The position numbers were made by a program, and so were the translations under genes. Under the pieces are notes generated by a model. The model was not told the DNA's origin. It saw only the letters and a program-made list of their open reading frames with translations, and ran no database searches. Positions 39,095 to 44,345 of a DNA stretch of 64,000 nt are shown one piece after another. The stretch spans positions 124,001 through 188,000 of the forward strand of contig NZ_CP046565.1 in the NCBI RefSeq assembly GCF_012769535.1, in the 5' to 3' direction. Source of the DNA: Methylococcus geothermalis (GTDB lineage: Bacteria; Pseudomonadota; Gammaproteobacteria; Methylococcales; Methylococcaceae). How positions within the stretch are numbered: position 1 is the first letter of the stretch; every line of letters begins with the position of its first letter.

Positions 39095-39108
39095 CGGGGA
39101 GGATTGCC

Positions 39109-40539
<1,431 letters not shown>

Positions 40540-40564
40540 GGGACATTTCCACCAGGGAGAGAAT

Positions 40565-40858
40565 ATGCCTACAACCTCACTATCCTGGACCTGATCCCGC
40601 CCGACGACGCCCTGGTGCAGAAGCTGTCCGCGCCGGGCGGAGGCGGAGACGGCGACGAACTGGAACTGTTCCGCCTGGCCGGTGGACGCCGCAACCTGCC
40701 GCCGCCCGTCGAAAGCCCCTGCGATGTTCCGGTTCGTGGATGATGTCTACGTCGCGAAGGCGGAACGCTGGGCTGGACCGGTAAGGCCGGGGAGGACCTC
40801 GTGCGGGTAGTGGAAGAGCAAGGCCAGTCCGCATCGGCCACGCTGCCGGCGCGATGAT
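40565..40858 (+). pseudogene. frameshifted small gene remnant after rtcB
   Basis: An ATG with AGGGAGAG upstream is followed, one base out of frame, by YNLTILDLIPPDDALVQKLS and a Gly/Asp-rich stretch ending after about 55 codons. A further frame gives AGEDLVRVVEEQGQSASATLPA. The pattern suggests a short gene with indels, but I recognise no family and it could be chance. Confidence 0.3.
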
Positions 40859-40922
40859 GCCGACTCGGGACGCCTAGAGTTACGAGAACATCAAGCGCGG
40901 GCCCAGAGGATTCGCCTCCAGG

Positions 40923-40960
40923 AAAAAAACGACCCTGGCAACAGACGTCGCTGCCAGGGT
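40923..40960 (-). terminator. intrinsic terminator of the sRNA candidate
   Basis: On the minus strand ACCCTGGCA (40960-40952) pairs perfectly with TGCCAGGGT (40940-40932) around an 11-nt loop, followed by CG and seven T residues. Confidence 0.88.
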
Positions 40961-41097
40961 TTAAAGCGGGGCATTCCTTATCCCAGACACACACCACAGA
41001 GAAACGACGTTCCGGCAAGGAGACGAGAGCCGGAACCCGCCGACGCCGGGATGGTCAGCGAAGCCCGGATCAGAGCATGCTCCATTTCCCCGACGCC
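40923..41097 (-). ncRNA. candidate Fur-regulated small RNA
   Basis: No gene explains this stretch, yet it has all the parts of a trans-acting sRNA on the minus strand. A promoter lies at 41132-41104, giving a start near 41097. A perfect 8-bp hairpin (GTTCCGGC/GCCGGAAC, 41036-41009) exposes a 12-nt pyrimidine-rich loop, TCTCGTCTCCTT, complementary to Shine-Dalgarno sequences. A 9-bp intrinsic terminator ends it at 40923, about 175 nt in all. No minus-strand gene follows, so it is not a leader. A 35-codon frame inside (41085-40978, starting MEHALIRAS and ending CGVCLG) has only a weak, too-close ribosome site, but a dual-function RNA is possible. Confidence 0.6.
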
Positions 41098-41103
41098 GAG
41101 GCC

Positions 41104-41132
41104 AATTTAGCGAAAATGAGAATTGTTCGCAA
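41104..41132 (-). promoter_or_regulatory. sigma70-like promoter with overlapping Fur box
   Basis: Minus strand: -35 TTGCGA (41132-41127), 17-bp spacer, -10 TAAATT (41109-41104). On the plus strand 41112-41130 reads GAAAATGAGAATTGTTCGC, matching the 19-bp Fur consensus at 13 positions by my count and filling the spacer. Fur bound there would block the promoter under iron-replete conditions (inference). Confidence 0.55.
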
Positions 41133-41271
41133 CTATTTTGTGCCCCACCCTGAGTGTTCAATAACAAGAAACACAGCTTGGACATTTTTTGATATTGTTC
41201 ACCCCAAAAGAACTGTATAGACTCAGAACCAGTTTTCCGCCGGCTGACTTTGTATCGAGAGGTACCGTTAC

Positions 41272-41511
41272 ATGAATACCGTTCAGGCAATCCCGCTGTT
41301 CTCACAAGCGTTTCAGGATGTTTCGAGCTACATCGCGAGCATCCGCGCCCCGTATACGCTGCAGGACATCCAAGGCTTCAACACGGCGTACAAGCGGGCG
41401 TACCCCTCCCTCAGCCGGGAAGAAAAACGCAGGATCGAAGCATTCGTGGATTTCATGATTGAAAGCGTCGCCAAGAAGGAATGGGCGAACAAGATTTTCG
41501 GCGTCGTGTAA
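41272..41511 (+). CDS. hypothetical small protein
   Basis: 79 residues (start MNTVQAIPLFSQAFQDVSSY, end KEWANKIFGVV), helical, soluble, one plausible domain with LQDIQGFNTAYKRAYPSLSREEKRRIEAFVDFM. GAGAGG precedes the ATG and a terminator follows 20 bp after the stop, so it looks like a real single gene. It is divergent from the sRNA candidate, and the Fur-like site lies about 140 bp upstream. Family not recognised. Confidence 0.6.
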   Translation: MNTVQAIPLFSQAFQDVSSYIASIRAPYTLQDIQGFNTAYKRAYPSLSREEKRRIEAFVDFMIESVAKKEWANKIFGVV

Positions 41512-41530
41512 AGCCCGTCCCTTCACGCCA

Positions 41531-41554
41531 AAACCGCCCCTACCGGCGGCTTTT
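41531..41554 (+). terminator. intrinsic terminator
   Basis: CCGCC (41534-41538) pairs with GGCGG (41545-41549) around a 6-nt loop, followed by C and four T. The stem is short but well placed behind the small gene. Confidence 0.6.
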
Positions 41555-42411
41555 GCGCGTACTCAATCCGGCCGGACCAGCCGGATTTTGGTTTTGCATT
41601 GGTATACCGCATCGACATCTCCCTAACCGACCCGAGGTACCCGGCCGATGCGGGCTCATGCGCTCCACCGCCGCCGCCACGGCTTGCCAGACCTACGGCC
41701 GAATCGACCCGGGGCGTCTTGATCGGTCTGCTCCTCTCCGCCTTCTGCGCCGATAGGGTGGCTGCCGACAGTCAGTCTTCGATCGGCGGCCCGCCCGCGA
41801 AAACCGTCCAATTTGATTCCCCCAAGCCGTCCCTGTCCCTGCGCCAGGCCAAGCACGGTTCTCCGCGACACCACCATGGCGACCGCTGATTGCTGACGCT
41901 GCACGGGTCGGCACCCTTGGCTCGCGACATTCGCTGCTCATCCTCCGAAGGTGGGCGAGCCCCAACAGCGCAAGTCCTTCGCGTCGGGCTGGTGCGGCAG
42001 TTTCGGCGCAGGCACACCGCATCGGACATCCTCGACGCCCCACTCAGCCAGGACGTGATCCGGCTCGAACTCTCCCCGCCTCCAGCCGGTGCGCCGCCCG
42101 ACCCCATCACCTACCAGCTGCGCCCGCCGACACAGACTTCACGCGCCTCGTTGATCGCTCTCGCCAGTCGCACAGACAGCCGGGACATCCCTCCTTTCGG
42201 GCGCGCATCCTTGTAGATCGACGCGACCGGCGGCGCGATCTCGTTTAGTATTTTCTGGTCGTCGCAAGGGGGGCAGTTCCGACCTTGCCTTCGACACCGC
42301 CACGAGCTGCCGGATCAGCACCATGAAAACCACGCCGATCCGGCCTTTGCGGAAATATTCAAAGAGAATCGGCTTTACCGACCGAAAAGAAAATTGGATA
42401 GCGAGGTGTTT
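41555..42411. other. 857-bp region without a recognisable gene
   Basis: Reading frames of 60-110 codons occur on both strands but have biased, Arg/Pro/Ser-rich composition. On the minus strand a segment with ILNEIAPPVASIYKDARPKG and RLARAINEAREV (about 42260-42110) looks protein-like yet lacks a good start and could be a fragment of a lost gene. Nothing else can be supported. Confidence 0.4.
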
Positions 42412-43199: not shown

Positions 43200-43372
43200 G
43201 TCAACCTCCTCAAGTAAATTTCTTGGAATGGGACACCTCACAGCGACTGCGGGGCAGAGATATCCTACCCATGCAAACGTGACATCGTCGTTACCATATC
43301 AAGAAAAACTTGTGACGAATTGACACCACAACCCAGAGGTACTCATGCCATCAAATGCATGTATTCGGTATG

Positions 43373-44345
43373 TGTCAAGTCCCGTGAGGTGATAAACCTT
43401 CTTGTGAAAGAGATCAGGGTGTGATGCTTGCCATTGTTTCAGGGCCTGGACCGGCGTTTGATGGTTGAGGGCTCGCTGCGGCATGTGGTGATTGTAGAGG
43501 TTGGCATAACGCAGCAAGGTGGTCGCCAGGTCTTCGGTCGAGTCGAAGCGATGGGTTTGCAGCACCTCGGCAATGCGGCCATTGAACCGTTCGACCATGC
43601 CGTTGGTTGGTGGCTTGGCCTTGACCAGGAAGCGGTCGGTGAATGCCGAGACGTGATCGGTCAGGCATGTCGGGATGCGGAACGGTGCCGCCTCGATCAC
43701 GGCCTTCAAGAACGCCTTGGCGGAACGCGCGGTGCGGTTGGGTTTCAGAGCCACGTAGACCCACCGCGTGGCGCGATCGATGGCGACAAACAGAAACTGG
43801 CGGGCTTCGCCCTGGATGGCCGGGAGATATTTCACATCGATGGGCACGAAGCCCGGCTCATAAGCCTTGAAGGATTTGTGGGGTGTGGCGGCGGGTATCG
43901 GTTGCAAGGCCTTGAGATGAGCGACGCCATGCCGCCGCAGGCAGCGATCCAGCCCCGAGCGCGAGACGCCGGGATTGACGAATTCCCGCGTGACGGCCAG
44001 CAGGTCATCCAATGACAACAGCACGTGTTGCCGCAGGTAGACGACGATGGCCTCCTGCGCCGGGGTCAACGTGGTATGCAGCGTAGGCGGCCGGTGGGAG
44101 GCGTCTTCGACCGACGTCCGCCGGCGCCACTTCTGCACGGTGGCACGGGCGAGGCCCTACTGCCGGGCCAAGGCCCGCGAACCCTGGGTGGACTCCTGAA
44201 GTTCCCGCCGCACCGCGGGCGTCGTACGGGCACGGGGATGCAAACGAATCATCATCGGGACGCTCCCTTCTTCGAGGACGGACCAAACACTTCCCGGAGC
44301 AGGCTCCAGGCTTCGAGAGGAAAGATGATCACGCGGGACGTAACA
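43373..44345 (-). mobile_element. inactive IS481-family insertion sequence (973 bp)
   Basis: The ends are imperfect inverted repeats: TGTCAAGTCCCGTG at 43373 and, read inward from 44345, TGTTACGTCCCGCG (11 of 14 identical). The interior encodes an IS481 transposase on the minus strand. The flanks are ATG on both sides, too short to prove a target duplication. A 237-bp internally deleted copy lies at 49885-50121. Confidence 0.8.
43377..44254 (-). pseudogene. IS481 transposase, nonsense-interrupted and internally deleted
   Basis: The frame starts at ATG 44254 (MMIRLHPRARTTPAVRREL) and meets an in-frame TAG after RALARQ, at a position where the family has an aromatic residue; it then continues GLARATVQKWRRR. 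The DDE core is also damaged: LTDHVSAFTDRF is joined directly to KPPTNGMVERFNGR, missing the ~30 residues between the second aspartate and this motif. The natural end HLTGLDT reads on past the element end. It cannot make an intact enzyme. Confidence 0.8.

Follow-up and report, generated by a model that had tools for sequence, protein, structure and literature searches.

The closest described counterparts of the locus analysed here are small RNAs (sRNAs) under the control of Fur. According to the available parts of the papers concerned, sodB is a target of RyhB (PMC11257911), the Pseudomonas sRNAs PrrF1 and PrrF2 have a Fur site immediately upstream (PMC7377471), and BrrF of Burkholderia cenocepacia is a structured, lineage-restricted RyhB analogue, dissimilar to other Fur sRNAs, that acts on sdh, acn and sodB (PMC7377471). 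IsrR of Staphylococcus aureus is also Fur-regulated, and its C-rich regions are able to base-pair at ribosome sites (PMC11257911). For methylotrophs, the available part of a Methylosinus transcription-unit paper covers EcpR1 and alpha-r45 (PMC12403871), and that of a review contains no iron-responsive sRNA of such a kind (PMC10992012). In the literature searched, which was judged largely from listings, no paper on an iron-responsive Methylococcus sRNA was found.

The locus lies in a 64-kb window, by which we mean the whole stretch of DNA that was analysed, of a host genome of 3.37 Mb in a single contig (G000). It was compared across a genus set of six genomes, G000 to G005. We consider it likely that the locus encodes a new, genus-restricted, RyhB-like iron-sparing RNA of the Methylococcaceae, which would be repressed by Fur and act in trans. 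Such an RNA would join the class of iron-responsive sRNAs at the level of function, and it stands outside every Rfam family tested.

Organization of the sRNA locus

The unit occupies positions 41132-40923 of the minus strand and comprises a promoter, a Fur-type box, a structured RNA of ~175 nt and a terminator. The promoter (41132-41104) reads TTGCGA-17-TAAATT, with the -35 element at 41127-41132 and the -10 element, at a spacing of 17 bp, at 41104-41109. The TTG of the -35 element is invariant in the six genomes, and the element is TTGAGA or TTGATA in four relatives. The RNA itself (40923-41097) has a 5' end at ~41097, inferred from the position of the -10 element, and a 3' end set at the T run. 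A 5' domain (41042-41097) is followed by a second hairpin (41009-41036), with a perfect 8-bp stem (GTTCCGGC/GCCGGAAC) and the loop TCTCGTCTCCTT at 41028-41017, which is the candidate loop for pairing with sodB and bfr. Next come the mostly unpaired block GTTTCTCTGTGGTGTGTGTCTGGGA (40981-41005), a candidate seed or chaperone site, and a mini-hairpin GGG...CCC (40969-40984). The intrinsic terminator (40923-40960) has a stem at 40960-40932 with 9 perfect bp (12 pairs in the scan) and seven T at 40929-40923; in G001 it is degenerate and lacks a proper T run.

The promoter, the 8-bp hairpin and the 9-bp terminator with its seven T, as named in the preliminary description, are all present on the minus strand. 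The Fur-box-like sequence that it had placed in the spacer is also there, at 41131-41117, but it overlaps the -35 element as well as filling most of the spacer. The RNA had further been called unannotated, and this agrees with searches of the Infernal/Rfam type. At the gathering cut-off, the whole window gave one match, to a tRNA elsewhere, and none at the sRNA, so that the models of RyhB, PrrF and the other Rfam sRNA families are not reached. Positions 40900-41300 searched at E <= 10 gave two matches, both to animal RNA families and far below the cut-off, and the six orthologous loci at E <= 1 gave one, to anti-hemB on L004, with 20.1 bits against a cut-off of 49.5.

Taken alone, the promoter and terminator signals are weak and show no excess over chance. 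No sigma-70 site reaches the threshold of the scan, the sRNA promoter matching at 8/12 positions by manual count, and three terminators were found in 40000-42000 against 1.7 expected. The fold of the sRNA is moderately better than that of shuffled sequences (z = -2.25; 5 of 200 shuffles equally good). With signals at chance level, outside evidence is needed, and the sRNA gene is taken to be real because it is conserved in all six genomes of the genus.

Conservation of the RNA and its structure

As judged from the six-species alignments, the locus is real and conserved. Conservation of the stem-loop RNA in relatives had been suggested as a check, and the locus is present throughout the genus. 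Of 101 genomes searched by BLAST, five matched the unit, and each of the five belongs to this genus. A covariance model found 11 of 301 genomes of the order at E <= 0.1, six of which are the genus genomes, with E-values of 1.9e-6 or better; the weakest of these is the diverged G001, which is absent from the model. There was no credible match in the remaining 295 of these genomes, although distant relatives may be missed, since the 301 are an even sample of a larger group and the filters were stricter.

Six weak matches (E 0.009-0.09), in G027, G021, G014, G029 and G158, which belong to other genera, and at a second place in G005, are regarded as chance. The alignment covers mostly the terminator in L033, L035 and L038, and the 5' domain with a G+C-rich hairpin in L034; for L036 and L037, the score alone was considered. 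The second G005 match (20.2 bits) aligns mainly at the terminator and was not counted as a copy. An exact DNA pattern gave a single match in the genome contigs (L006), which has unrelated flanks, lies in seemingly coding DNA and is also attributed to chance. A DNA search of plasmids gave no match to the locus.

Conservation is uneven along the unit. Mean pairwise identity among the six species is 0.71 for the promoter, 0.74 for the second hairpin and 0.77 for the following block with the mini-hairpin, and 0.55 for the 5' domain and 0.60 for the terminator region; the flanks (0.48 for 60 nt upstream, 0.33 downstream) are far below the promoter, hairpin and block. An anti-Shine-Dalgarno role had been proposed for the loop. 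Its hairpin is kept, but conservation is highest in the block that follows it. In the 5' domain, the sequence of which is poorly conserved, the outer stem is retained (paired in 90% of cells) and the inner hairpins are retained poorly (60-68%).

When the G003 fold is taken as the basis of the structure, 84.7% of the alignment cells are paired, against 33-52% for slid structures and 82.2% for shuffles, 6 of 500 of which are as high. Ten pairs are changed on both sides, compared with a mean of 5.9 in shuffles (6 of 500 reach 10) and 4-7 in slid structures; five such pairs are in the terminator, three in an inner 5' hairpin and one in the loop hairpin. For the other measures of pair change, shuffles were as good in 56/500 (covariation score), 26/500 (cells changed on both sides) and 407/500 (further pair types), so that in this small alignment of six sequences two of the five measures are not clearly above their shuffles. 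Over the entire structure, the expectation of compensatory changes in the stems is thus modestly borne out, but it is hardly tested in the loop hairpin, which is almost unchanged among the species.

The loop of the mini-hairpin contains an A-N-GGA motif (40979-40975, minus strand), which is a possible CsrA site. A Fur-controlled sRNA might accordingly act through a protein, by sequestering CsrA/RsmA with this loop or as an RNA bound by Hfq or ProQ, and not by pairing with mRNA. The motif is kept in all six genomes, the three pairs of the mini-hairpin never vary, and the surrounding block is the best conserved, all of which would fit this possibility. However, only a single site of the ANGGA type is conserved. 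Known CsrA-sequestering RNAs have many sites, and the several GGA hairpin loops of a CsrB/RsmZ-type RNA were not seen in the alignment, which was inspected by eye. We consider action through a protein improbable.

Another alternative is a dual-function or small-protein mRNA under Fur, with a frame that ends in ...LAGTSFLCGVCLG and has a CxxC motif. The conserved block is open in this frame in the six species, as judged by eye without a formal coding test, and G000 has a 35-codon ORF with an ATG start. Against this stand the lack of a start codon common to the species and of a good ribosome site, one-base indels within the frame (in the loop and at GGGATAAGG/GGGAAAGG), a frame that reads AFLFVVC in G004, and differences in the block that are mostly non-synonymous. 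A coding role appears very unlikely. Judged by its sequence, the RNA would be a stand-alone non-coding transcript with its own terminator, as an iron-sparing sRNA should be.

The Fur-type operator and related sites

The box at the sRNA promoter, TGCGAACAATTCTCA, differs by one mismatch from the 15-mer TGAKAAYNRTTMTCA and is one of only six such sites in the G000 genome. At up to one mismatch, TGAKAAYNRTTMTCA occurs 6, 6, 8, 5, 4 and 4 times in G000 to G005, respectively, whereas the reversed pattern used as a control has two sites in G004 and none in the other five genomes. The sRNA promoter is among these sites in five of the six genomes, the exception being G004, with the weaker predicted operator TGAGAACGTTTCTCT. 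Compared with TGATAATNATTATCA, the sRNA boxes match at 10 of 14 positions in G000 and G002, 11 in G003, 9 in G004, and 12 in G005 and G001. In 20 sampled G000 stretches, 29 of 399,700 positions reach at least 10/14, and the G004 score of 9/14 is met or beaten at 241.

A promoter of the same layout precedes bfd, beside the bacterioferritin gene bfr, where TTGAGA, the box, a 17-bp spacing and a -10 element are found in all six genomes; the sRNA promoter of G003 and the bfd promoter of G001 share their first 16 letters. Part of the 33 sites could be assigned, and iron or haem genes with Fur-type sites include bfd, a FagA-like ORF and a gene for a CCP/MauG-family protein. The FagA-like ORF, of 78 aa (L061:2633-2869 (-), G000:C1 near 1273442), has a mismatch-free box at its promoter in 6/6 genomes. 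It has no Pfam or NCBIfam family, and we take it to resemble FagA of Pseudomonas. The CCP/MauG-family di-haem protein (L063:2996-4168 (+), G000:C1 near 2887446) has a box directly upstream of its start. It matches Pfam CCP/MauG above the cut-off and, as its best NCBIfam model, MbnH below the cut-off, and was verified in G000 and G004. In L065 (G000:C1 near 273261), a box lies between the ORFs of two large multihaem cytochrome-like proteins.

Fur is encoded (E 1.8e-44), and a second, weaker match to the Fur family (E 1.2e-9) corresponds to a protein that could also bind the box. Hfq is encoded as well (E 2.4e-29); with the gene present, binding of Hfq to the sRNA is putative. Control of the sRNA promoter by Fur, as originally suggested, is strongly supported because the box is rare (4-8 sites per genome), is found at the sRNA promoter in five of six genomes and has the same layout at bfd in all six. 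The promoter is thus very probably under Fur control.

The box could in principle serve only the divergent 79-aa ORF (41272-41511, plus strand), with the minus-strand RNA as an incidental conserved transcript. It is palindromic and lies ~140 bp upstream of this ORF. But the -35 element overlaps the box in the sRNA orientation, as it does at bfd in 6/6 genomes, and the RNA is conserved in its own right, which makes this possibility hard to credit. The 79-aa ORF itself is the divergent neighbour in all six genus genomes. It has no Pfam or NCBIfam match, and 29 of the 38 family genomes contain relatives, some of them several.

On the other side, the sRNA gene converges with a gene for RtcB (39100-40539, plus strand; the left limit is that of the tested stretch, the start being unmapped) in G000, G003, G004 and G005, and with a penicillin-binding-protein gene in G002. 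In G001, the contig stops ~108 nt beyond the RNA and the downstream neighbour is unreadable. In G003, G004 and G005, ~55 nt separate the end of the neighbour from the terminator. In G000, what is left of the 3' portion of this penicillin-binding-protein gene lies at 40648-40851, between RtcB and the terminator; in the G002 gene, which replaces RtcB as neighbour, 477 codons of open frame fall within the stretch examined. Farther away, 43299-44138 (minus strand) matches an IS481-family transposase below the NCBIfam cut-off, with its best plasmid relative in Candidatus Methylocalor. A structured RNA ending in a terminator might suggest a leader or attenuator at the 5' end of a gene on the minus strand, a reading that the preliminary description had already discounted. 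It can hardly be maintained when the downstream neighbour lies on the other strand in all five readable genomes and the minus-strand ORFs 40569-41018 and 40580-40834 are mechanical.

Candidate targets

The preliminary description had the CU-rich loop pair with AAGGAG-type ribosome sites. The loop sequence UCUCCUU is exact in three of the six species, UUUCCU in two, and lost in G001. Each genome has 13-26 places at which AAGGAGAC precedes an ATG by 2-8 nt, and sodB is among them in five of six genomes. The best model for the product of this gene is [Fe] SOD, with 346.4 bits against a cut-off of 348. Between the loop and the sodB Shine-Dalgarno region, 9 bp are predicted in G000 and G003, 10 bp in G002, and a weak pairing of 7-8 bp in G004 and G005. 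For the changed loop of G001, a 9-bp helix is predicted with ACUAGCGCC, just 3' of the sodB Shine-Dalgarno sequence, at -13.8 kcal/mol with its own sodB versus -3.5 with the other five.

Seven gene families were picked from known RyhB-type targets, and sodB was settled on after its match had been seen. By helix alone, sodB ranks 5/269 in G000, 0/269 in G002, 2/269 in G003, 37/152 in G004, 11/150 in G005 and 1/163 in G001, where the background includes sodB and the one is sodB itself; gene starts were taken from a simple script, and G002 and G003 were ranked against G000 genes. Out of 500 shuffled loops, 0, 0, 1, 35, 39 and 9 are as good at sodB in G000, G002, G003, G004, G005 and G001, respectively. 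In the same order, the ranks corrected for accessibility are 28/269, 28/269, 8/269, 62/152, 63/150 and 14/163 (10, 10, 3, 41, 42 and 9%), and the best sodB site then differs from the loop in G003, G004, G005 and G001. These corrected ranks are suggestive only, and sodB is the best target candidate.

The other families were scored in all six genomes (sdhC and acnB, like sodB), in five (leuC, the second SOD, bfd) or in four (bfr). Only bfr ranks well in every genome scored, with 7-8 bp at GGGAGA and ranks of 13/269, 7/269, 28/269 and 12/150; GGGAGA is also present in bfr of the unscored G004 and G001. The sdhC start codon can pair with UUUCUCUGUGG in five of six genomes, at ranks of ~6-13% only, and this is the best accessible site in G002 and G001 alone. 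For leuC (a tentative name), acnB, the second SOD and bfd, pairing was inconsistent, and single ranks are noisy, since one leuC row (G005) gives 1/150. RNAduplex on whole leaders was set aside as G+C-rich pairing dominates, the sodB rank being 17% with the loop and 70% with the whole RNA. For the conserved block, the six genomes contain no long or near-perfect conserved complement elsewhere, and no target in common.

Predicted pairing of the loop with the sodB Shine-Dalgarno region, and perhaps with that of bfr, is the best-supported idea of a target. The anti-Shine-Dalgarno mechanism is plausible, but unproven. It is less secure than the operator because the loop is lost in one species and CU-rich loops fit many ribosome sites; sodB stands as a reasonable candidate, and the mechanism as first worded is weakened by the variation of the loop.

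Proposed function

In iron-sufficient cells, Fur-Fe2+ would repress the sRNA gene, in keeping with the conserved operator-promoter and RNA. When iron is short, repression would be lifted and the sRNA presumably made. Together with Hfq, it would then act as RyhB does and lower the synthesis of iron-using proteins by pairing with ribosome sites. The loop of the second hairpin may bind the sodB Shine-Dalgarno region, and perhaps that of bfr, and the conserved block after the hairpin probably holds a second contact, with a target or with Hfq. A RyhB-like RNA is favoured because the locus is found beside the 79-aa ORF in all six genomes, the box has the layout of bfd, and both Fur and Hfq are encoded. 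This interpretation is weakened by the poor sodB pairing in G004 and G005, the weak box in G004 and the degenerate terminator in G001.

A bolder and rather doubtful extension is that the RNA is an independently evolved RyhB equivalent, the contact loop of which co-evolves with the sodB ribosome site. It is suggested by G001, because the loop has been rewritten there and yet pairs, in another register, with its own sodB only. If true, the iron proteins of methane oxidisers would be linked to the supply of iron through this RNA. Methane oxidisers rely on copper, iron and haem proteins, and an iron-sparing RNA would therefore add a genuine level of regulation there. The window and the 30 stretches examined gave no match to motifs of methanol and methane oxidation genes, so that methanotrophy is deduced here from the family name. 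If the RNA spares iron, it would be another case of unrelated RNAs solving one problem. Its targets and its operator are directly testable from the six-species alignment.

Comparison with known systems

Like the sRNA proposed here, RyhB of E. coli and its relatives is Fur-controlled and belongs to organisms with Hfq, and the candidate pairing with sodB adds to the resemblance. RyhB has a length of ~90 nt. In contrast, the RNA described here is ~175 nt long and more structured, has a CU loop, lacks an Rfam match at the cut-off and has been seen in one genus of the Methylococcaceae only. PrrF1 and PrrF2 are likewise Fur-controlled gammaproteobacterial sRNAs. Instead of two near-identical tandem copies, however, each of the six genomes has one credible copy, which has other neighbours and no Rfam match at the cut-off. 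IsrR offers a precedent for C-rich pairing with ribosome sites, although it is a Firmicute RNA with three C-rich regions, likened to the present one by description and not by sequence. Finally, BrrF is a precedent for what we propose for this sRNA, namely a lineage-restricted analogue of RyhB without sequence similarity to it.
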